Virus record (IMG/VR): IMGVR_UViG_3300023179_000623
Coordinates: 1 to 20,249 of that record
Reading direction: 5' to 3' (one strand)
From: a virus
Length of the DNA: 20,249 nt
Shown here: positions 7,871-19,448 of the stretch, piece by piece
Layout: each line of letters begins with the position of its first letter
Numbering within the stretch: the stretch's first letter is position 1
Notes under the pieces: generated by a model
Databases searched by the model: none
What the model was told of the DNA's origin: nothing
The model's input: the letters and a program-made list of their open reading frames with translations, nothing else
Program-made: the position numbers and the translations under genes

Positions 7871-8617
7871 TTATTTTTTATTTTTTAAATACTCATATAT
7901 ACTCCAAACGCTTTTCCATATTTTTTTATTATAAGCATATTTTATATCATACTTATTTACTCTTTTAATCCATTTAGATATATGTTCGACAGTATACCCT
8001 TTGTCTAAAAATTCAATTATCTTTATTTTTATTCTAAAAGAAACCCCATTCTCTTTTGATGGAAACCCAGGATAAGGATAATTAAAATATTGATGCCACA
8101 AATGGTTCCATGTTATTCCATATCTTAGATTAGTTATTGTTCCTGATTGGATAGGTAGGTCTAGTTTTTTGATTATTTCATTATTACTATAATATTTTTT
8201 TATTAAACTATAAATTTTTATTACTTGAGGTTCTGTTAAAATAGCACTTCTATGGTTTTCCCCTACAGGAAGATTTAAATTAGGATGATTTATTCTAGAT
8301 AATCTAATTTTTTGTTTGGTTTCTTCACTTAGAGCCCCCTTTCCAGTTCCTAATTTTAAATTTAATCCGTTTTCACCTAGTACCTCATTTTGCATACCCC
8401 AATATATTTCTTTTTCATTTAATTGTTCTAAGGTACATTCTTCAAGAATTTCAAATTTGTGATTTTCAGGGCCATATTTTTTAAGTGAATTATATATTTT
8501 GTGTTGCTTCCAACATTTAAGCTTTTTGTAGTCTTTTTCTCTTTTTTTAAGATCTACAGATTGACCAATATATATTTTTCCTATGGGTGATGTAATTTTA
8601 TAAATTCCTATATTCAT
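7871..8617 (-). CDS. Free-standing GIY-YIG homing endonuclease with NUMOD3
   Basis: This encodes 248 residues from an ATG at 8617. GIY (4-6) and YIG (16-18) are spaced as in the family; R26, E70 (LNEKEIYWG) and N86 (NGLNLK) fit the other conserved catalytic positions. A NUMOD3-type DNA-binding motif follows (GKGALSEETKQKIRLSRINH, about 92-112). Two later helical segments that read like helix-turn-helix modules complete it (VIKIYSLIKKYYSNNEII; IIEFLDKGYTVEHISKWI). Such genes spread into neighbouring essential genes by cutting alleles without them, here probably near nrdB. A longer TTG start at 8674 exists, but the ATG matches the family N-terminus and is preceded by a motif M copy at 7 nt. Confidence 0.93.
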   Translation of the reverse strand: MNIGIYKITSPIGKIYIGQSVDLKKREKDYKKLKCWKQHKIYNSLKKYGPENHKFEILEECTLEQLNEKEIYWGMQNEVLGENGLNLKLGTGKGALSEETKQKIRLSRINHPNLNLPVGENHRSAILTEPQVIKIYSLIKKYYSNNEIIKKLDLPIQSGTITNLRYGITWNHLWHQYFNYPYPGFPSKENGVSFRIKIKIIEFLDKGYTVEHISKWIKRVNKYDIKYAYNKKIWKSVWSIYEYLKNKK

Positions 8618-8624
8618 ATTATTA

Positions 8625-8647
8625 TTTTTATCATAAATATGTAAAAA
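8625..8647 (-). promoter_or_regulatory. Motif M, copy C (before the GIY-YIG gene)
   Basis: Minus strand: TTTTTACATAT followed directly by TTATGATAAAAA. It differs from copy A at two positions and lies 7 nt before the ATG at 8617. A dedicated promoter for a homing endonuclease would parallel T4, where several such genes are under late promoters. Confidence 0.45.
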
Positions 8648-8670
8648 TTTGAAAATATACATGTATTTGC

Positions 8671-9219
8671 TCAAATTTTTGGGGTTATAAAATATGTGCC
8701 TTCTGCTTCAAATTCACCTTTATCTAAATCATATTTATCTTTTCCTAATTTAGAATACATGTTATAAAAATAACTATATCTATCGTCTGCTAACCCATCC
8801 CCATCATATGGTTGAAATATAATACCCATAATTTCTCCAGAGTCAAATAAGGGTTTTATTTTTGATTCTAATACTTTTCTTAAAAATAAAGCTTTTTGCA
8901 ATTTATAAGGGTCTTTATCATCCCATTTATATCTTTCTTCATCAGTAGAAGCATTTAAATTTCCAAACTTTAATTCATGATATTCTTCTATTGCTTTACT
9001 TTTTAATAATCTAATTTCAAATGGTGGGCTGTTTTTATCCCCTTTAAATTCTTTAGGTCTAAAAAAATAATTATCTCCTTGCTCTAAAGTTTTTATACCC
9101 CATTGAGTAATTTCATTTAAAATATATTGTTTGGTGGCTTCTCTGCGTTCGGTTAAATTAGAATAATGTTTCTCTAACTTTTGGTAGGTTTCTATTGCTA
9201 TTATATTTAATGCTCTCAT
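8671..9219 (-). CDS. Unknown conserved-looking phage protein
   Basis: This encodes 182 residues, soluble, with no signal peptide or membrane segment. The N-terminal third is helical (IAIETYQKLEKHYSNLTERR). The C-terminal part has an aromatic and acidic segment (IIFQPYDGDGLADDRYSYFY followed by NMYSKLGKDKYDL) and ends in a beta-like strand (GTYFITPKI). I do not recognise it; the C-terminal pattern is faintly like acetyltransferase-related phage proteins, but no acyl-CoA loop can be identified. It follows the helicase gene with a 19-nt gap. The gap reads GTGTATAATAATAA on the minus strand, a partial match to motif M. The GIY-YIG gene is inserted between this gene and nrdB. Confidence 0.75.
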   Translation of the reverse strand: MRALNIIAIETYQKLEKHYSNLTERREATKQYILNEITQWGIKTLEQGDNYFFRPKEFKGDKNSPPFEIRLLKSKAIEEYHELKFGNLNASTDEERYKWDDKDPYKLQKALFLRKVLESKIKPLFDSGEIMGIIFQPYDGDGLADDRYSYFYNMYSKLGKDKYDLDKGEFEAEGTYFITPKI

Positions 9220-9238: not shown

Positions 9239-10606
9239 TTATACACTTAGATTAAAAAATTTACTTGCTAATTGCTTTCTATCTAATTCATCAAAATTTG
9301 TATTACGAACGGGAGCAGTAGATTGGGTTTCTGATTCTTCATCGTGTAAATCACCTGTGATGTCGAAATGTCCAGTTGATGTATCTATTTTAGCTCCAAA
9401 AGTCATTCCGTCTATTCCGTATCTATTTTTCATAATGTGAAATCTACCTGTTCCGTTAACTTTATCTTGACGTTTACGAGAAAGTGATATAGCTACATCA
9501 GTAATCATAATTTTATCATATGATCCTGCGGCTTTATCACCTTCAATTATATCGTCTTTCGCACCTGCACGATTAACTTGTGAGACTGACCATATAGGTA
9601 GGTTTAGTTCACGTGCTAATCCTTTAGTACTAACATAAATATCATCTATTTCATCTTTGCGTTCGCGGTTTGTTCTTTTAGAGCGAAGAAGATCTACATA
9701 ATCAATAATAATTAAATCTGGTTTAAATTCTTGGTCTATACATTTTTTAATATGCGATTCAATGGTAGAAATGGACGCTTTACCCGGTGAATACTCCCTT
9801 ATAATCAATTGTCCTTTCAAATTCGATACAGCCTGTTCAACTTGAGAACGATGCGGTGATTCCGCTATACGATCAACAGGAATTTGTGTAAAAAAAGCAT
9901 CATACCTTCTACCAACATAATCTTCACCTAATTCTAAAGTATAATGTATTACATTATATCCTACACTTACAGCATATCCCCCTAACGCAATTAGAGTCCA
10001 AGATTTACCACCACCCGGATTACCAAATATCAATCCAAAGTCTCCGTTGCCAATTCCTCCTTGTAAAATATCATTAAATACACCCCATGGAGTAGGTACT
10101 ATTACTCTGTGGTCGTCTCTGTAACGAGATTCAACATCTTTATTATATTCATGCCCTATATTTTTATCTTGGCCTGATTTTAAGGCATTATCAATTAATG
10201 AGCGTATAGCATCATAATCCCCTAGATTAAGAAAATCAACACTTGTAAGTAATGCTTTTTTAAGTTGCTGATTTTTACAGAAGTTTGAAAATTCCTCTTC
10301 AACATATGCTAAATCTTCATCAGAAGATTTGTATGCTTCACGAAGTTGTTCTTTAATTGAAATTTGTAATACTTCATTATCAATTTTTTTCAATTCTACT
10401 TTCAACACTTCCATTGAAGGAGTTGTATGGAATTTATCAAAATATTTTAATATTTCTTTAATAATCCATTTTAGAGATTGAGAATCAAAATAATCATCAC
10501 TTAATACATCGTGAATATTAAGTAAAAATTCTTTATGGGTAAGTAAAGCAGATATTACTTTTATTTGAAAACCCATACCATATTGAGATAAACTATTTAA
10601 TGTCAT
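9239..10606 (-). CDS. Replicative DNA helicase, DnaB / T4 gp41 type
   Basis: This encodes 455 residues. The N-terminal domain (about 1-150) is all-helical as in DnaB. The RecA-like motor has Walker A GNPGGGKS at 195-202 and Walker B LIIIDYVDLL at 298-307, then the SVSQVNRAG segment (sensor-like Gln) and an Arg-rich C-terminal part of the motor (SLSRKRQDK), followed by MKNRYGIDGMTF, typical of the family. It would unwind DNA 5' to 3' ahead of the phage replisome. The tail (about 425-455) is acidic and probably flexible. No gene for a DnaG-type primase lies in the window. An HNH endonuclease gene sits just upstream, and a weak motif P site overlaps the end of that gene and could serve the helicase. 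Confidence 0.95.
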   Translation of the reverse strand: MTLNSLSQYGMGFQIKVISALLTHKEFLLNIHDVLSDDYFDSQSLKWIIKEILKYFDKFHTTPSMEVLKVELKKIDNEVLQISIKEQLREAYKSSDEDLAYVEEEFSNFCKNQQLKKALLTSVDFLNLGDYDAIRSLIDNALKSGQDKNIGHEYNKDVESRYRDDHRVIVPTPWGVFNDILQGGIGNGDFGLIFGNPGGGKSWTLIALGGYAVSVGYNVIHYTLELGEDYVGRRYDAFFTQIPVDRIAESPHRSQVEQAVSNLKGQLIIREYSPGKASISTIESHIKKCIDQEFKPDLIIIDYVDLLRSKRTNRERKDEIDDIYVSTKGLARELNLPIWSVSQVNRAGAKDDIIEGDKAAGSYDKIMITDVAISLSRKRQDKVNGTGRFHIMKNRYGIDGMTFGAKIDTSTGHFDITGDLHDEESETQSTAPVRNTNFDELDRKQLASKFFNLSV

Positions 10607-10626: not shown

Positions 10627-10658
10627 CTAATTTAATTAGTTTTATTTATATTTCCAAA
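10627..10658 (-). promoter_or_regulatory. Motif P promoter-like site (copy 3, imperfect -7 box)
   Basis: Minus strand: TTTGGAAAT from 10658, and TAAATTAG at 10634-10627, with the same 20-nt gap between TTTG and TA as in the other copies. The -7 box has A instead of the third T. It overlaps the last codons of the HNH gene and ends 20 nt before the helicase ATG. Confidence 0.4.
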
Positions 10659-11253
10659 TATATCCACCTGATGATTTTGTTTTCCCTCTAAGACAAGAAC
10701 CAATACAATTACTACTAAGGTTATAATATCTTTCAGCTTCTCTAGCACTATTCCATTCTTTAATAAATTCTCCATTTTTATTATATTGAAGTATAAGTTT
10801 ATTATTTATTAATCTATTTTTTAAATTTGGATTATCTTTATTAAAACCTTTTGGTTTTGGTTTACCTTTTAAACTTTTACTTATTTTATCCCCCCAAGTA
10901 ATTTTTCTTCCTTTATTAGAGGGTTTAGAAATTCCTTTTACTTTATTTATAAATTCTAATTTAATTTTTTCATATATTCTACTTGACATGACGTACGGAG
11001 ATAAAGATTTTTGTCGATTTTTTCCAACAACCATTAACCATAAAGCATACCATAATTTATTGTTATTTGGGTATATTTCACAAAGCAATCTATGACATAA
11101 AAAATGTTCTCGAGCAGTTAATTCTACAAGATTATTTTTATTATTATCTCCTCCTAAACATTTAGGAATAATATGGTGTTTTTCTCTATAACCTTCTAAT
11201 ACTCGGTTTTTTGCTCTTTCAATAATTTGACTATAAATATTTTGATAATTCAT
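10642..11253 (-). CDS. Free-standing HNH homing endonuclease with NUMOD3 and NUMOD1
   Basis: This encodes 203 residues from an ATG at 11253 (MNYQNIYSQIIERAKNR), the usual N-terminus of this endonuclease group. The HNH nuclease core is YREKHHIIPKCLGG (HH at 26-27) with NNKNNLVELTAREHFLCHRL (N41, H50, H54). A NUMOD3 repeat (NKGRKITWGDKISKSLKGK) and a C-terminal NUMOD1-type module (ILQYNKNGEFIKEWNSAREA, then GGYIWKYK) would bind DNA. A start at 11295 would add 14 residues that do not fit the family. The gene stands between the exonuclease and helicase genes, in the leader of a motif P promoter about 82 nt upstream, so it probably invaded next to the helicase gene. Confidence 0.93.
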   Translation of the reverse strand: MNYQNIYSQIIERAKNRVLEGYREKHHIIPKCLGGDNNKNNLVELTAREHFLCHRLLCEIYPNNNKLWYALWLMVVGKNRQKSLSPYVMSSRIYEKIKLEFINKVKGISKPSNKGRKITWGDKISKSLKGKPKPKGFNKDNPNLKNRLINNKLILQYNKNGEFIKEWNSAREAERYYNLSSNCIGSCLRGKTKSSGGYIWKYK

Positions 11254-11335
11254 ACTATAATAAATATATGCTTGATTATCAAAAATACTAATCATTTTTG
11301 TAAGGTAAAATAATACTATTAACTTCTATTTTATT

Positions 11336-11379: not shown

Positions 11380-12414
11380 TTATTTATAACTTGCTAATTG
11401 TGTAAAACTATTTTTTAACCAAAAATCTACATTTCTAATCAAATGCCCGAGTCCATCTTCATTATATAATTCTAAAAATTCTTGGGGATGAAACTGAGGT
11501 ATGGGGCTCTCAATAGCATTTTGAATATTAATTTTGTCATTTTCATCTAATAAAGGATTAGATAGATCCATGAGTTTATAATTCTGTTCTAATCTATTTT
11601 TTTCTAAAACTACTCGAGCATATACATCGTGTGTTTTGTATTTTGATTCTGCTATACTAAATATGTCCTCTAATGTAAGTATGCGAGTTGCTAATTCAGG
11701 GAATTTTTTTAATAACCCCTTCTCACCTAATCCTTTTACTCCAATAATCCTATCAGAAGCATCACCTAATAATACTTTACGTAAAATAAAATTTTCAGGT
11801 AATAATCCATATTTTTCTTTTACTTGATTATATGAAAATACCTCTTTTTCTGTAGGGCGAAATATATTGACTTTTTGAGTAGCAAGCTGTAAAAAATCCT
11901 TATCTGAAGATACTATGGTAATAGACGTATTATATTTATTAGGCATATAACCTGCCATATATGCTATAACATCGTCGGCTTCTGCTTTGTGTATAGATAA
12001 TAATTTAACCGGCAAACATTGTAAATAATGTATTAATCTTGATATTTGCCCAATTTTGGCATTATTTTCATCATCAACATCATCAAACACCTCCCAATGT
12101 GTAATTCGTGTTAAATTTCTACCAGATTTGTATTCGGGGAGCAGGTTTCTTCTGTTTGTAGAAGCACCTGCTCCGTCGAATACAACATACACGGAAGATG
12201 GTCTAATTGTGTCAATTAAATATCCTAAAGAGCGTATAAAACCCCCCATCCCCCCTATATGCACACCATCTGGGTTGGTGAATCGCATGGTAGTAAAGTT
12301 TCTAAAGAATAAGTTTAAAGCATCAATTAATAAGACATGATTGTGTTTATCATAAGATACATCATCCTTATCCTCAATTACATTATTAAGGAGGTTTAAA
12401 AGCTCTTTATTCAT
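11380..12414 (-). CDS. rnh: 5'-3' exonuclease / RNase H of the FEN family (T4 Rnh-like)
   Basis: This encodes 344 residues. The acidic metal-binding residues of the 5' nuclease family are all visible: D31 (VLLIDALNLFFR), D80 (VYVVFDGAGAS followed by RR), E145/D147/D148 (HKAEADDVIAYMAG), D171 and D173 (IVSSDKDFLQLA) and D218/D221 (LLGDASDRIIGV). The helix-hairpin DNA-binding loop is GVKGLGEKG at 225-233. These enzymes remove RNA primers and flaps from lagging-strand fragments, which fits its place between UvsX and the helicase. The C-terminal 80 residues are less conserved, as in T4 Rnh. It is separated from uvsX by 2 nt and ends a transcript block before a motif P site. Confidence 0.94.
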   Translation of the reverse strand: MNKELLNLLNNVIEDKDDVSYDKHNHVLLIDALNLFFRNFTTMRFTNPDGVHIGGMGGFIRSLGYLIDTIRPSSVYVVFDGAGASTNRRNLLPEYKSGRNLTRITHWEVFDDVDDENNAKIGQISRLIHYLQCLPVKLLSIHKAEADDVIAYMAGYMPNKYNTSITIVSSDKDFLQLATQKVNIFRPTEKEVFSYNQVKEKYGLLPENFILRKVLLGDASDRIIGVKGLGEKGLLKKFPELATRILTLEDIFSIAESKYKTHDVYARVVLEKNRLEQNYKLMDLSNPLLDENDKINIQNAIESPIPQFHPQEFLELYNEDGLGHLIRNVDFWLKNSFTQLASYK

Positions 12415-12416
12415 AT

Positions 12417-13496
12417 TTAATCTGGTTCTTGGGAAAATATGTTGGTTGTTTCAAATGTATCTTCTTCTTCAAAGATATCAAAATCTATTCCACCAAGTAT
12501 TGCGCTCCATTCTTTAGCATGAGCATCCTTATAGGATTTAATTTCTTTATCAGAATCATTAATAAACCCATGAGGTGTTACTACAATTTTTCCCCTTGAC
12601 TGCACACCATTTATATGGTTTTTATCAATTTGAACATTAGTGCGCTTAGCAAACTCAACTTGTTTACCATCTTTAATGGCTTTAATTTTTGATGTGCCAG
12701 CATTTGCTACATTACCAAATGTAATAACAAATGTAGCATCAAACCACATTGCGAACCCACCTTTATTCATAAGTTTAGGCTGTCCCATAGGAACTTCAGC
12801 TTTAGCTGTCCAAACTTTATTAACACATACCAATGTATTAGTATAAGGTGAAGATTCTTTGCGAGATAATGTAATTTTTTGATTTACATTATTGCCAAAT
12901 TGAGTTGACATAGCACCTGCATTCCATTCATTATTGTTTTTATTGGATTTAACTGATAGTTCACATGGCACAGAACCTATTGAGTCCCATAAAAATAATA
13001 AGTCATATGGAAGATTTCCTTTCTTTTGTTCGTCAAGTAAATCTAATATAAATGCGGCTACATCTTCTATTGTATGAAGGTTTTCACGATCAACATATAA
13101 AAATTGACCCTCATAATCTAATAACTCGCCTGTTTCTTCATCAACAACACGTTTAACTTCCAACCCCATTTGAGTAGCATGCTCCCAATTCCATTTCATT
13201 TCAGTAACGATGAAAACAGGTAATACTCCCATTTTTTGAGCAGACACAGCTGCTTCAATCATCGCAGTAGTCTTACCAGTATCCGAGTGACCACGTAGTA
13301 AAACTATGTGGCCCATCGGAATACCGGGTACTGATGTTGTTTCTTGAAAAGCATGGCTCAAAGGAATCCATTTTTGATCTTTAAACTTAACACTTGAATT
13401 AAGTAATTTTTTAGATTTAAATTTATTTAAATCAAATCCTGCTCTAAGTTCAGCAGATACTGCTGCATTAAGCGATTCACTTTTTTTACGAGCCAT
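12417..13496 (-). CDS. uvsX: RecA-like recombinase, UvsX type
   Basis: This encodes 359 residues. Walker A is GHSDTGKT at 69-76 and Walker B is LLFLWDSIG at 166-174 with D171. After it, the NNEWNAGAMSTQFG and NNVNQKITLSR segments and TLVCVNKVW match the ordering of RecA/UvsX strand-exchange proteins, and the GGFAMWFDATFVITF strand follows. It would form filaments on ssDNA for recombination-dependent replication and repair, working with the gp32-like protein encoded immediately upstream (14-nt gap). The C-terminus is acidic (IFEEEDTFETTN), as in many recombinases where the tail tunes DNA binding. No separate promoter is seen; it probably shares the motif P site at 14352-14383. Confidence 0.93.
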   Translation of the reverse strand: MARKKSESLNAAVSAELRAGFDLNKFKSKKLLNSSVKFKDQKWIPLSHAFQETTSVPGIPMGHIVLLRGHSDTGKTTAMIEAAVSAQKMGVLPVFIVTEMKWNWEHATQMGLEVKRVVDEETGELLDYEGQFLYVDRENLHTIEDVAAFILDLLDEQKKGNLPYDLLFLWDSIGSVPCELSVKSNKNNNEWNAGAMSTQFGNNVNQKITLSRKESSPYTNTLVCVNKVWTAKAEVPMGQPKLMNKGGFAMWFDATFVITFGNVANAGTSKIKAIKDGKQVEFAKRTNVQIDKNHINGVQSRGKIVVTPHGFINDSDKEIKSYKDAHAKEWSAILGGIDFDIFEEEDTFETTNIFSQEPD

Positions 13497-13510: not shown

Positions 13511-14323
13511 TTAAAATGGGAGATCGTTAGAATCGTGCTCTGTTTCTTCTTCAAACAAGCTATCAAATTTTTCTGCTTTGTTTACTTTAACAGGAGCACT
13601 TTTTGTAGCATAATTTGTAGCTGGCTTCTCAGGAGCAGGAACTGCTGCTTCTTCATCTTCCTCAGGGGTTAACCAAGATTGAAGTGCTTGTTTCATTTCA
13701 TCAAATGAATATTTTTTAAACGACTCGATCGGGTTAGGCTGATTTTCCAAAACATTTTTAACATATGATTTTTCTTCAGAAATCGGTGTTTCTTTAGTAC
13801 GAGGCATAATACTTGTTTTGTTGTATGGAGTACCTGTAACTTCAGGACCAACAGTTGTTAATATAATGTCTCTACCTGTTGCAACATCAGTAAAATCACC
13901 TACGTCTTCATTATCAGCCAAGTTCAAGAAATCCGTATATGTTTCTTTACCAAATTGCCACAAACGAACACCTTGATCTTCTTCACCACGGACAATTACC
14001 GGAGCAAAAATACGGACTTTTGGGTCCAATTTGCGGGCCAATCTCCAATTTTCCTTATCGCTTGTTTTACGAAGCTCTTTAGCAAACTCAGCGATTGGAT
14101 CTCTTTCTCCCCAATTTGTGGGCGACAACATTGTATTATTACCAATACCATAGTAAAAATACAATTCGGTAAACGGATTTTTCTTATTATACTTGTTAGG
14201 TACAATACGAATGGTCTGTTTACCAACAGAGGGTTTCCAAAAAACCTTCTTTTTCTCATCTGATTTCTCAGCAGATTTCGATTGCATTTCTTGCAATCGG
14301 CGTTTCATTTCGTTTAAATCCAT
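13511..14323 (-). CDS. Single-stranded DNA-binding protein, gp32-like
   Basis: This encodes 270 residues. The order is basic N-terminal arm (MDLNEMKRRLQEMQSKSAEK), an OB-fold-like core beginning FWKPSVGKQTIRIVPNKYN and containing FTELYFYYGIG, WGERDPIAEFAKEL and VRLWQFGKETYTDFLNLADN, and an acidic, Ala/Pro-rich C-terminal tail. The arrangement is that of T4 gp32, which coats ssDNA during replication and recombination. Unlike T4 gp32 there is no cysteine and no zinc-binding site in the core. The last residues (DSNDLPF) resemble the protein-docking tip of bacterial SSB (DDDIPF). A motif P promoter stands 28 nt before its start, and uvsX and rnh follow closely. The assignment relies on overall layout and neighbours. 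Confidence 0.88.
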   Translation of the reverse strand: MDLNEMKRRLQEMQSKSAEKSDEKKKVFWKPSVGKQTIRIVPNKYNKKNPFTELYFYYGIGNNTMLSPTNWGERDPIAEFAKELRKTSDKENWRLARKLDPKVRIFAPVIVRGEEDQGVRLWQFGKETYTDFLNLADNEDVGDFTDVATGRDIILTTVGPEVTGTPYNKTSIMPRTKETPISEEKSYVKNVLENQPNPIESFKKYSFDEMKQALQSWLTPEEDEEAAVPAPEKPATNYATKSAPVKVNKAEKFDSLFEEETEHDSNDLPF

Positions 14324-14383: not shown

Positions 14384-14842
14384 TTAAAGCTCAATAATCC
14401 TAAAAATCTTTGTGTTCAATTGTTTGAACTGTCCTTCCTGAGTAAGTAGAATGCAATTTTTATAATGTTGCCATTCTACTCTGTAACTTGTATCTACAAT
14501 GCCCCCATTTAATGATTTTATAAGTTCATTTAATGCGTTTATAGTGTATAACGTATTAGTTGCTTTGTTTCGGTGAACAAGTATGGTGCCCGCCGGAATA
14601 TGCGATATATTAACTTGATCTATATTATAAGTTAAAGCATATTCTCCCGTACTTTTAACATGCAATACAAATATTTTATTATATTTGATTGAGTACGAGT
14701 TAGTTATATCTGATATAAGTGCATCTAGATTTTCTTGATCTACAAATGTGCACAATAGTTTATTATCCAAGTCTATGATATTTAATGAGGTTTCTCCTCC
14801 ATAAATATCATCATATTTGCGCAAAGTCGTAAGATTTTCCAT
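14384..14842 (-). CDS. Unknown protein encoded after the polymerase
   Basis: This encodes 152 residues. The sequence looks like a compact mixed alpha/beta protein with no membrane segment: LNIIDLDNKLLCTFVDQENL, YNKIFVLHVKSTGEYAL, then TLYTINALNELIKSLNGG, followed by YRVEWQHYKNCILLT and a closing strand (KIFRIIEL). I do not recognise it. It overlaps the 3' end of the polymerase gene by 32 nt and precedes the SSB gene, so it belongs to the replication module and is probably translationally coupled to the polymerase. In T4 the gene just after the polymerase is regA, a translational repressor, but no similarity to RegA is apparent here. Confidence 0.75.
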   Translation of the reverse strand: MENLTTLRKYDDIYGGETSLNIIDLDNKLLCTFVDQENLDALISDITNSYSIKYNKIFVLHVKSTGEYALTYNIDQVNISHIPAGTILVHRNKATNTLYTINALNELIKSLNGGIVDTSYRVEWQHYKNCILLTQEGQFKQLNTKIFRIIEL

Positions 14843-16067
14843 AACTGATTTTAATATTTAATTTATATTTTTTAAAAATGTTTATAATGTCATCTAAAAT
14901 GTTTTCATTCTCATCCCAATCTAATAAAAAAGCATCATAGGTATATAATACAACTTGGGTATTTTTTCCTCTTAATAACCTAATTATCTCTTCCAATATA
15001 CGAACATTATTTGCGGTCTCCAACCCTTGTAGTATATAGTTGAAAAGCTTTTGTGGGTTCATATTATCTAATTTATCCTTTTTAAGGCAATGACCCGAAA
15101 TTGGCACGATAACTTGACCTAAGTTATTGAATTCTTCCCATTTATCGTTTATAAACGATCCAATTTTTTTAAAAAACTCCAAATTTTTGTATGTTTCAAA
15201 TACGCCACCATACATTTGCTGAAATGTGATTGTTTTAGCTTCTTGATAGGATACGCCATACATTTTGGCAAATGAGTCGTGTACGTCATCGCTATCAAAA
15301 GTGAAATCAACCAAATAAGCAGCCAAAACAGGATGATATGCTGAAATGTCAATTTCTACAAATTTAGAGTTTTTAGGTATAAATGCTTTTCTTGCTCCAT
15401 TGTTTTTTGGTATAGCTAAAAAATTAATGCCATTAAAAGTGTTACTTGGTCTGCTGGTAGTGGTATCCAAGTTATATTGTGTATATATCGTTTTATAGTG
15501 TATATTACGCGCGGCCTCATAATTTTCATGGAAGGCGTCGAATATGGATTGATCGATGTGTATCCCTTGAGATTCAACATAGTAAAAACATTTTATAGCT
15601 AAGTCCTTGAATTTATTAACTGGTGTAAAGTCTTTAATTCCATTATAAATATGAGTATATTTTTCATAGTGTTTAGATATTGGAATTAGACAATTGGGAG
15701 ATGGATGTGATTTGTATAAGTTAAATACGGGAGAGTGTATATACGGAGGAGAGGGAGGGGTGTGGAGCTGCTGGGCATGCCTTAACACAAAATAGTGCAG
15801 CAATGTTTTTTTATCTGCTACATATATTTTATTTATAGAACTAAGGGCTCTAATGGCATCTTCTAAAGATAATGATAGTGATTCACTATGATTTATACAT
15901 AATATGTATCCCTTAGTATCCTTGAGTGGCCTTATGTATATTAAGGATATTTGGTTAATTGCTGGGTGGACCGAATCGTTATGGGGAATTATTTCAACAA
16001 ATGCCTCTTCATGCCTCTTGTAACAAAATTCGTTTAATTGGTCTTGTGTCTCAACTATATAAAACAT
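14811..16067 (-). CDS. Short family-A (PolA-like) DNA polymerase, diverged
   Basis: This encodes 418 residues. The C-terminal half carries the family-A polymerase motifs in order: TTTSRPSNTFNGINFLAIP at 202-220 (counterpart of the T-x-R-L-S-S and N-I-P segment), KFVEIDISAYHPVLAAYL at 235-252 (motif A, D240), EAKTITFQQMYGG at 276-288 (motif B/O-helix, K278, F282, Y286-G287), ILQGLETANN at 345-354, and VVLYTYDAFLLD at 372-383 (motif C, D378). The O-helix Arg is Tyr (Y274), and the motif C HDE is YDA. Residues 1-100 (EIIPHNDSVHPAINQISLIY) may be a remnant 3'-5' exonuclease domain, but no intact metal-binding set is obvious. It is far shorter than Pol I or T7 polymerase. It could be the replicase, a repair polymerase or an inactive derivative. 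Confidence 0.75.
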   Translation of the reverse strand: MFYIVETQDQLNEFCYKRHEEAFVEIIPHNDSVHPAINQISLIYIRPLKDTKGYILCINHSESLSLSLEDAIRALSSINKIYVADKKTLLHYFVLRHAQQLHTPPSPPYIHSPVFNLYKSHPSPNCLIPISKHYEKYTHIYNGIKDFTPVNKFKDLAIKCFYYVESQGIHIDQSIFDAFHENYEAARNIHYKTIYTQYNLDTTTSRPSNTFNGINFLAIPKNNGARKAFIPKNSKFVEIDISAYHPVLAAYLVDFTFDSDDVHDSFAKMYGVSYQEAKTITFQQMYGGVFETYKNLEFFKKIGSFINDKWEEFNNLGQVIVPISGHCLKKDKLDNMNPQKLFNYILQGLETANNVRILEEIIRLLRGKNTQVVLYTYDAFLLDWDENENILDDIINIFKKYKLNIKISYGKSYDFAQI

Positions 16068-16073
16068 ACAGTT

Positions 16074-16105
16074 GAAATGTATGATGAAATTTTTAGGTTT
16101 CCAAG
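16074..16105 (-). promoter_or_regulatory. Motif P promoter-like site (copy 6, near-leaderless)
   Basis: Minus strand: CTTGGAAACC from 16105, and TACATTTC at 16081-16074, same spacing as the other copies. The -33 box lies in the last codons of the 201-residue gene. Only 6 nt separate the -7 box from the polymerase ATG at 16067, so the transcript would start at or next to the start codon. Confidence 0.55.
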
Positions 16106-16698
16106 TAATATTTTAAGTAATCTTCTTTTAAATATAGATTAAGTTTGGGCAAATTAAACTGTTGTTGGGCTAATAATGTTATGTTGCGGTTAGTTTTAGC
16201 TACTTGTTGTTTATCTCCAGTTAAAGTCCACAATAAATCAAATGGAAAATATAATTGCCAAAGTATTTGGGGGTCTTTACTTATTAATTTATCAAATGTG
16301 TTTTTATTTATTTCAATGTATATAATTTCGTTTGTTTTTTTACAGAAGTATCTTCTAAATGTTCCTATTTGATAATCTTGTTGTGTGGGTAATGTTGGGA
16401 TATATACTGGAATTTGGATGGGAGATAAATTTGGATTAATTATATTTATATAATTTAAACTGTCTTGAGTATAATTTACATAAGATAAAGGAGTTTCAAC
16501 TCGAGGAGATGATTGGGCTAAAGTATCTAATATTAATTCTTGACTTGCGGGAGTGTTGGGTGTTTGTCCACTAAAATATTTGCCGTCTGATGTTTGATAG
16601 TAGTATCCTTTATATGGTTCTAAATTTAGAGCATAAACCAGTTCCCCTCCATTTGTGTATAGATTAGTTTTTATTTGGGATTTAGGATAGTAAGGCAT
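16093..16698 (-). CDS. Probable baseplate/virion-associated protein, unknown
   Basis: This encodes 201 residues. The N-terminus is rich in Tyr and Gly (MPYYPKSQIKTNLYTNGGEL, then YKGYYYQTSDGKYFSGQTP). The middle is Pro-rich (IQIPVYIPTLPTQQDYQIG), and the C-terminus is helical (NLPKLNLYLKEDYLKYYLET). It has no signal peptide, membrane segment or recognisable enzyme motif. Its ATG overlaps the stop of the 916-residue hub-lysozyme gene (TAATG), so the two are probably made together, which supports a structural role. I recall similar N-terminal patterns in other marine and freshwater T4-like phages, always without known function. It is the last gene of the tail block before the polymerase. Confidence 0.7.
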   Translation of the reverse strand: MPYYPKSQIKTNLYTNGGELVYALNLEPYKGYYYQTSDGKYFSGQTPNTPASQELILDTLAQSSPRVETPLSYVNYTQDSLNYINIINPNLSPIQIPVYIPTLPTQQDYQIGTFRRYFCKKTNEIIYIEINKNTFDKLISKDPQILWQLYFPFDLLWTLTGDKQQVAKTNRNITLLAQQQFNLPKLNLYLKEDYLKYYLET

Positions 16699-19448
16699 TA
16701 TTTAAATGTTCCGTTTTTTATCTTATTATATATATCCTTAGCGTATATCTTTCTTTGTTCTAAACTTTGGCCATTACTTATTTCATATTTTTCATCAAAA
16801 ATAGTAGTTGCTCCATCTACTGTTATTGCGGTATTTTTTAAAGCATTTAATACTGCAGAGAAATTGCTTTTAAGTTCATCCATTATCCAGTTTAATTGAG
16901 AATTTAATGAGGTATAATCCTTGGGATATCTTTTTTTTAATCCATCTTGTCTTTCGAATCTCCATTGGGCTATACCATATGCTGTTCCATTATCCCCTAA
17001 AGCATTAGTGCTCAACCCAGATTCTACTAATAAATTTCCTACAATACCAGCAACACTGGTATCAGGAAATCCTTGAGATTTAAAGAAGGTTATAGCTGTT
17101 TGAATAGAGGTTTGATTGAAATTAGATGCGTTAGAAATTAAGTTTTTTGGTGTGCTTTGAGCTCTTTGTTGTTGCACTATTTTTCCTAATTTTGTTCCAA
17201 AAGGATTTGCAGGTATTGCGAAGGATTCAATATTAGTGATCCATTCATTATTTTGAATAGTATGAGTTATGCCTTTAATTATAAAATCTAAAGAAGTTGG
17301 ATAATTTGAAGGTAAAAAATCAGTATCCATTTCAAATTTTTGATAAATTTTCATCCCAGACAATCCATCCATTGTTAGTGACATATTAAATGGTAAAAAT
17401 CCCATGTTTGGAGAGGAAGCATCAGTTGATGAACTACCCTTAGAGGCAGAAGCCTGTCTGTATTCTATAAGTTGAGTTTGTAATGAAGAAAAATTATCAA
17501 TAGATGTTGTGTCCCATTCTGGTTTATACACTTTTCCAAAATAGTAGCTGCTTAATTTTGTTATAAAGTTATTATACGCATCTAATGGTTCTTTATATTT
17601 TTGCTCAAGTGTAAGATTTTCTCTGTCTTTACTTCCGGGGGAATTAATATTTTCTTTTGTTCTATCTGTTAATCCAGCATTCATTCTTGATAGAGCAGTT
17701 GCGTCTGCACCTAGAACATATCCTTGTGCTGTTGATCCTATGGTAATTAAAGTAGAAAAATTATGAGGGATTTGGGTTGTGAAGTTTATATCTTTTAAAA
17801 ATGTGCTTCCGGTGTTTGGGTATGATTTGTATGTTAAAAACTTGGCAGTTTCAACAGGAATATTAAGATTATTTAATAATATAGTTTTATCTCCTTTAGG
17901 TATAGAAGATTCATCTATAATTTTACAGATATTAGTATCAGGATCTATTCTTATATCTAATCGATTTACATGGCCTGTAACTTGGTTCCATCTAGTACAT
18001 AAATTTCTTACTAGATCTAATATAGATACTTCTCCAGTATCAGCAGATATTAAATTGGCTATAGTGTTACTAATGTAATCCATATTAAAATATGCATTCA
18101 TTATCTTTCCATAAGAAAAAGTTGTTCCTTTTTTAATTTCAAATTCTTCTGCGTCTTCACTAAAATTTAAAATAAGAGGATCAAAGTCAATACTTTTTCT
18201 AAAAGTACATACTCTAGGATCAGCACTTATTTGATATGCATCTAGGTAAATCAGGTTAGTTTCAGGATTAGTATCAAATCTAATTAATCTATTGTTAGTG
18301 TCATCATCAATATATGGGATTAAATTTTCTTCTATCCAATCTAAAAAGTAACCTAATCTAATATAGTATTGGATATTTTCAGTTTTAGAATATGTTTGCC
18401 CAAAGCTATTTATTTTATCTTCATTAGGAGATGTAGTAGAAGTATCTATCTTCATCCCATTTTGAAATGCAGGTATTAAGTCTATTCCTTTTTTTAGGTT
18501 AAAAAATAATCTATCTATTTCATTAGAAATTTTAGTAGGCTCAATAGTTTCTAAAGGTTTTAAAGGAATTTGTGTTTGAGTTTGTCTTATTCCTGGTGTT
18601 ATTGATTGATTAATTTGTTCTGCATATGTTAATGTGTTCGCGGCTGATTGCAAAGGAACACCAGTGGTTTGTAATTTACCTTCACCGTCTCCTAACAAAA
18701 TATTAGCTTTTAATGATTCAATTACATCTCCTAAACTTCGTAAAATTAAAGTAATATCATATGTGCCGTCTCGATTATACTTCCAATTGAAATTTACCAC
18801 CTTCCCAGCAATGGCATCATAGTTCCCATTTGATTTTAATCTGCTATCTTGAATAGTATCAAGAATTTTATTATATTTATAAAATCCTTCCAAAAATCCA
18901 GTGTAAATACCAAAAGGATTATCATCAACAAAATTTCCACTATTATCAAAATATGAAGCATGCCCCCATTCTAACAACATAATAAATCCTAATCTTAAAT
19001 AAAGTATATCTATTATATCAAACTGAGTTCTGTTATTTGCGGTGATTTGGATTGTGGCTTCTTTAAGGGAGCCTATAGTTAATGTTTTTACCTGAGCAGA
19101 TTTGATACCGGGCATTGGTTTAATACCAAATTCTAATCCTCCTATACCGTATGCTTCTGTGTTAAAAGGATTTCTTAGATTATTAAAATTAGTTCCTTGT
19201 ACTCCTCCTATTCCCCCAAATAAAACATATTTTTTTGCTAAGTTATTGCTGCTTAATTCCGCTGGAAAGCCTCTAATTTCTGTGTTTGAATTTATATTAA
19301 CAGAAGAAGCTAATCTAACCCACCCCGTGTTTGCATTGAGGTATTGCAGTTGTTCATTGGTTCTATTTATAGTACCATAAATCTTCTGTCTTGTATCTAC
19401 TTGTTCTCTGATTTCTCTAGCAAAACCTTCTCCTACTATATTAGACAT
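16698..19448 (-). CDS. Large tail/baseplate hub protein with C-terminal tail lysozyme domain
   Basis: This encodes 916 residues. The first 250 or so hold beta-rich segments typical of baseplate hub or spike proteins (IGGLEFGIKPMPGIKSAQVK, LTIGSLKEATIQITANNRTQ). The middle part is long and unrecognised, with several Asn/Ser/Thr-rich loops. From about residue 773 a phage tail lysozyme-type domain begins: TSVAGIVGNLLVESGL with E809 as the candidate catalytic Glu, then NGTAYGIAQWRFERQDGL and LNSQLNWIMDEL. This is the local peptidoglycan-cutting module used when the tail tip penetrates the cell wall. Fusing it to a hub-size protein parallels T4 gp5, but the lysozyme family is different. It is flanked by a LysM-like wedge gene (3-nt gap) and a 1-nt overlap with the 201-residue gene. 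Confidence 0.85.
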   Translation of the reverse strand: MSNIVGEGFAREIREQVDTRQKIYGTINRTNEQLQYLNANTGWVRLASSVNINSNTEIRGFPAELSSNNLAKKYVLFGGIGGVQGTNFNNLRNPFNTEAYGIGGLEFGIKPMPGIKSAQVKTLTIGSLKEATIQITANNRTQFDIIDILYLRLGFIMLLEWGHASYFDNSGNFVDDNPFGIYTGFLEGFYKYNKILDTIQDSRLKSNGNYDAIAGKVVNFNWKYNRDGTYDITLILRSLGDVIESLKANILLGDGEGKLQTTGVPLQSAANTLTYAEQINQSITPGIRQTQTQIPLKPLETIEPTKISNEIDRLFFNLKKGIDLIPAFQNGMKIDTSTTSPNEDKINSFGQTYSKTENIQYYIRLGYFLDWIEENLIPYIDDDTNNRLIRFDTNPETNLIYLDAYQISADPRVCTFRKSIDFDPLILNFSEDAEEFEIKKGTTFSYGKIMNAYFNMDYISNTIANLISADTGEVSILDLVRNLCTRWNQVTGHVNRLDIRIDPDTNICKIIDESSIPKGDKTILLNNLNIPVETAKFLTYKSYPNTGSTFLKDINFTTQIPHNFSTLITIGSTAQGYVLGADATALSRMNAGLTDRTKENINSPGSKDRENLTLEQKYKEPLDAYNNFITKLSSYYFGKVYKPEWDTTSIDNFSSLQTQLIEYRQASASKGSSSTDASSPNMGFLPFNMSLTMDGLSGMKIYQKFEMDTDFLPSNYPTSLDFIIKGITHTIQNNEWITNIESFAIPANPFGTKLGKIVQQQRAQSTPKNLISNASNFNQTSIQTAITFFKSQGFPDTSVAGIVGNLLVESGLSTNALGDNGTAYGIAQWRFERQDGLKKRYPKDYTSLNSQLNWIMDELKSNFSAVLNALKNTAITVDGATTIFDEKYEISNGQSLEQRKIYAKDIYNKIKNGTFK

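Follow-up and report, generated by a model that had tools for sequence, protein, structure and literature searches.

What does a 418-residue family-A-type polymerase do at the head of a T4-like replication module? The window analysed here, 20,249 bases long, is an entire IMG/VR record and covers only part of a phage genome. A preliminary description had read one of its genes as a very short family-A polymerase with altered catalytic motifs, and had proposed either a distinct minimal replicase lineage or a polymerase with a changed job. The open reading frame is intact, the opposite (plus) strand is rich in stops over the same interval, and its start, MFYIVET, is common to relatives. Single-sequence searches with the 418-aa protein gave no real match in Pfam or NCBIfam, and a PDB match from such a search was rejected as a chance match. 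PHROG_17 (DNA polymerase) matched residues 194-394 at E=1e-8, and a profile built from 25 family members retrieved the E. coli Klenow fragment at E=8e-8. The AlphaFold2 model (pLDDT 89, pTM 0.87), when searched against the PDB with Foldseek, placed Klenow and other Pol I enzymes at the top (for the E. coli enzyme, E=8e-16 and TM 0.72-0.75 relative to query length), and the best matches in a collection of viral models were ordinary phage PolA proteins. Together these matches bear out the reading frame and the family-A identity first proposed, and we regard the product as a predicted family-A polymerase with a Klenow-like fold.

Table 1. Features of the polymerase locus; locus counts refer to loci with enough sequence, and residue counts to 111 family members.
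Feature	Coordinates	Strand	Remarks
201-aa protein, function unassigned	16093..16698	-	conserved upstream neighbour; borders tail-lysozyme/baseplate genes
divPolA1-type family-A DNA polymerase (predicted)	14811..16067	-	418 aa; exo-like ~1-123 degenerate; thumb truncated; palm + fingers ~191-412
D240 codon, motif A	15348..15350	-	= Pol I D705; invariant 111/111
H245 codon	15333..15335	-	at Pol I sugar-selecting 'steric gate' E710; His 111/111
D378 codon, motif C YDA	14934..14936	-	= Pol I D882; invariant 111/111
p152, 152 aa	14384..14842	-	overlaps polymerase gene end by 32 bases; downstream in 103/103
SSB (gp32-like)	13511..14323	-	PHROG_1192 E=2.4e-16; 83/83 loci
UvsX-like recombinase	12417..13496	-	PHROG_97 E=1.2e-16; 54/54 loci
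5'-3' exonuclease (FEN / T4 RNase H type)	11380..12414	-	PF02739 E=7.6e-32; 46/46 loci
DnaB-like replicative helicase	9239..10606	-	PHROG_19 E=2.9e-76; 37/37 loci

Residue equivalences were taken from a profile alignment to E. coli Pol I, and conservation was counted over 111 family members that range down to ~30% identity to the query polymerase. Seven residues are invariant in all of them, R206, D240, K278, F282, Y286, Q347 and D378, corresponding to Pol I R668, D705, K758, F762, Y766, Q849 and D882; the likeness to Klenow also covers the overall fold, motifs A, B and C, and an equivalent of N845. A catalytic set that stays invariant at such divergence points to a working active site. By secondary structure, the palm strand 235-241 has D240 at its end, and D378 lies in the hairpin turn between strands 371-376 and 379-384, as in Pol I. 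Because the model matches Klenow and both residues are placed in this way, we infer that the two aspartates converge in the palm. Aspartates that fail to come together, named in the preliminary description as part of what would count against its reading, are not what the model gives, the predicted fold being Klenow-like. Its residue calls were right as well: the profile alignment pairs D240 with D705 and D378 with D882, and gives YDA in place of HDE in motif C and Y274 in place of the O-helix Arg, R754.

Across the family, the R754 position is Tyr in 99/111 members, the H881 position is Tyr in 110/111, and the E883 position is Ser in 88 and Ala in 23, giving a motif C of YD(S/A). The third residue of this motif would by itself be no strong sign, because motif C reads HDQ in a canonical PolA encoded by these phages; YDA is less odd than it appears. 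This canonical PolA, encoded as gp199 (777 aa) in Flavobacterium phage immuto and also in related genome G003, is of family A like the 418-aa enzyme, but keeps the exonuclease DTE motif, the steric-gate Glu and the O-helix Arg. The altered motifs that were said to set the window polymerase apart thus held up, while two further departures had been overlooked, the loss of the thumb and the replacement of E710 by H245.

The alignment breaks off at Klenow residue ~558 and resumes at ~648 with next to nothing in the interval, so that ~89 thumb residues (about 559-647) are absent, and motifs A and C lie ~40 residues closer together in the sequence than they do in Pol I, with reduced fingers. The N-terminal exonuclease-like domain retains the Klenow fold order with all its catalytic acids replaced. 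Within the first 160 residues, the only acids conserved at ≥90% are E6, E62, D85 and E135, none of them in a DxE motif, in agreement with the short exonuclease region without metal ligands noted at the outset. The thumb and the active proofreading domain typical of a Pol I/T7-type replicative polymerase are therefore both missing from the 418-aa protein. Lost exonuclease ligands, a truncated thumb and the change of E883 to Ser or Ala might describe a catalytically dead relic retained as a structural factor. We consider this most improbable, as both catalytic aspartates and the O-helix Lys are kept in 111/111 members from very diverse phages, which would be unexpected for a dead enzyme.

The steric gate raises a different alternative. 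In Klenow, E710 excludes ribonucleotides and the E710A mutant admits rNTPs; in T7 RNA polymerase, motif C is HDS. The steric-gate Glu of canonical replicative family-A enzymes (Pol I/T7 type) is absent from motif A in 111/111 members of the present family, all of which carry His. Because of this His gate, ribonucleotide use is a real alternative: together with the YD(S/A) motif, it would suit a primer-making or RNA-synthesising family-A enzyme that uses or tolerates ribonucleotides. Such an enzyme is nevertheless unlikely, since both F282, the counterpart of F762, and the RPSN-FN-INF motif resemble a DNA polymerase, a promoter-binding domain is absent, and no RNA polymerase occurs among the best 50 Foldseek matches listed. 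Moreover, three related genomes (immuto, G001 and G002) already encode a DnaG-type primase, so that conservation of the polymerase in them does not call for a primase role, and the argument that it must be a PrimPol was discarded on this ground.

The polymerase gene belongs to a minus-strand run that encodes the 201-aa protein, the polymerase, p152, SSB, UvsX, the 5'-3' exonuclease, an HNH-like protein and DnaB, followed by others including a GIY-YIG-like protein, NrdB and NrdA. From the polymerase to DnaB, the order polymerase-p152-SSB-UvsX-FEN-DnaB was kept at every locus with enough sequence (counts in Table 1). The reciprocal check from p152 found the polymerase upstream in 61/61 loci, and p152 is present in exactly six phage records, identical to the six that carry the polymerase; p152 is an invariant gene partner of the polymerase. 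It is highly conserved in sequence and is predicted to fold compactly (pLDDT 83), and Pfam, NCBIfam, PHROG, and profile and fold searches including the PDB gave no significant match for it.

Several other features of the window deserve mention. The HNH-like (10642-11295) and GIY-YIG-like (7871-8674) genes, judged by reading of the sequence, resemble free-standing homing endonucleases and lie beside the helicase and NrdB, respectively. The starts at 14842, 14323, 13496 and 10606 are preceded by A/T-rich sequence ending in AGTT and lack a Shine-Dalgarno motif, a pattern expected of a Bacteroidota host. The product of the gene at 16698-19448 is 916 aa long and carries a phage tail lysozyme domain at its C-terminus (PF18013, residues 783-909), together with a divergent N-terminal part that is kept in relatives.

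A family with these properties has been named divPolA1 from immuto and its relatives, 14 genomes in all (Yutin et al. 2024, Virol J 21:200, PMC11348598). The text of that paper describes conserved palm residues, a truncated thumb, an inactivated exonuclease, a conserved replication neighbourhood occupied by divPolA1 and not by the regular polymerase, and, in addition, a regular family-A, -B or -C polymerase. The window polymerase has the catalytic palm, the truncated thumb and the replaced exonuclease aspartates, and it is encoded upstream of SSB, recombinase, exonuclease and helicase. By sequence and model it is a divPolA1 member from T4-like phages of the 'Far-T4'/Immutovirus type. The Far-T4 phages were described by Roux et al. 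2015 (PMC4360716), with queuosine genes in clade 1; immuto carries such genes too. Immuto gp001, the divPolA1 of vB_FspM_immuto, is 34.8% identical over 91% of the window polymerase and shares its gene order, palm residues, truncated thumb and replaced exonuclease aspartates, in a genome that also encodes a regular polymerase; the window member is 23 residues shorter, and nothing separates the two. The divPolA2 of barbaviruses, according to the same text (PMC11348598), is likewise a family-A enzyme that lacks a normal thumb and accompanies a PolB as an additional polymerase, but has an unrelated N-terminal globular domain and a variable neighbourhood, whereas the window polymerase has an exonuclease-like N-terminal fold, a full-length Klenow-like alignment and a fixed neighbourhood. 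A literature text search for divPolA1 returned only Yutin et al. and its preprint, and a word search of the paper's text returned no mention of the steric gate. The His at E710 in 111/111 members and the p152 partner (103/103; 61/61 reciprocal) are, relative to the text of PMC11348598, additions that we did not find there.

We then considered which other polymerases these phages encode. A canonical polymerase (PolB, or full-length PolA) is co-encoded in 11 of the 12 related records of ≥90 kb. The sole exception is G033 (120 kb, maybe incomplete), in which canonical PolA, PolB and PolC were all undetected. Full-length PolA occurs in immuto and G003, and PolB was found in G001, G002, G004, Microcystis phage Mel-JY01, the 484-kb LR756508 record, 14/23 further contigs and 3/8 others. 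The canonical gene sits elsewhere, among nucleotide-metabolism and chaperonin genes. No second polymerase was seen in the 20 kb of the window, a genome fragment; the second polymerase that the preliminary description had also named as counting against it is present in the relatives. Among these, G012 and G020, at ~50% identity and with a UvsX 85-87% identical to that of the window, encode a full-length PolB. The main polymerase type varies, from PolB in one piece or in two to full-length PolA, and divPolA1 and p152 are constant. Because the main polymerase changes type while divPolA1 stays, divPolA1 would be an auxiliary enzyme and not a subunit of one particular replicase.

A family-C polymerase occurs among the relatives only in the LR756508 record, where a family-C-type segment (LR756508.1:47415-48068) and PolB pieces (260623-266900; open frames of 1022 and 625 aa) accompany divPolA1. 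Three genomes encode PolB as two ORFs of ~570 and ~315 aa, the break falling exactly in the interval from motif B to motif C (L170:3361-6285 in G001, G002:17687-20617 and G019:57794-60456), with an 87-aa ORF between the halves in G001 and G002. Directly after PolB, five PolB genomes encode a 240-246-aa protein (for instance L190:3364-4101, L170:6288-7007 and L185:462-1184) that is absent from the two full-length-PolA genomes. As a candidate sliding clamp this protein was set aside: its top PDB match is a beta clamp at E=0.1, which is not significant.

The roles could also be reversed, with divPolA1 as the actual, minimal replicase and the canonical polymerase serving repair. divPolA1 always heads the SSB-UvsX-FEN-DnaB module with the canonical polymerase located elsewhere, and the neighbourhood observation in the text of Yutin et al. 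allows it to be the more central enzyme (PMC11348598); the G033 record, too, speaks against an auxiliary role. However, a replicase without thumb and proofreading and with reduced fingers would be surprising in phages whose full PolB or PolA still has its motifs and exonuclease intact, and the possible clamp, a weak pointer, follows PolB only in the PolB genomes examined. We therefore rate this arrangement as quite unlikely. Of what was first proposed, the distinct lineage and the changed job are supported and the minimal replicase is not, as relatives pair the same gene in the same module with a complete PolB or full-length PolA.

Taken together, divPolA1 is probably an auxiliary DNA polymerase that lacks proofreading and carries out short synthesis beside the main replicase, PolB or PolA. 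Because its catalytic set is invariant, it would add nucleotides to DNA; because thumb and exonuclease are missing, it would grip the duplex weakly, work in short distributive stretches that are not proofread, and require assistance to remain on DNA. SSB, UvsX, FEN and p152 are suggested as helpers by the gene order, and SSB, UvsX, p152 or another partner probably keeps it on its substrate in place of the thumb. Such short synthesis could serve gap filling, primer replacement or recombination, together with the SSB, UvsX, FEN and DnaB encoded downstream: divPolA1 might fill gaps after the neighbouring FEN removes primers, or might extend recombination intermediates made by UvsX; both fit. Missing proofreading and a duplex-binding side left open without a thumb might also be expected of a translesion or low-fidelity mutator polymerase, a very unlikely identity for a gene that every related phage carries in its core replication module, with no damage-response context. 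Beyond the auxiliary role, we see a small chance that divPolA1 and p152, whose fold has no PDB match, form a two-subunit polymerase in which p152 replaces the thumb and the His gate admits ribonucleotides. If true, RNA-DNA primers, for example, could be made or extended, or DNA patched when dNTPs are scarce.

Phage records with relatives of the polymerase are limited to Flavobacterium phage immuto (four), one 484-kb uncultured phage (LR756508) and Mel-JY01, and no close relatives were found in bacterial genomes. In IMG/VR we found 43 close loci, and the remaining contigs of the window's own clade, at 71-99% identity, are each ≤17 kb; a profile search extended the family to at least 584 stretches. 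divPolA1, described from 14 genomes, is thus a core gene of a widespread aquatic phage group. The His gate and the p152 partner offer two direct biochemical handles on its job, and one phage that carries it, immuto on Flavobacterium sp. LMO8, has been isolated.
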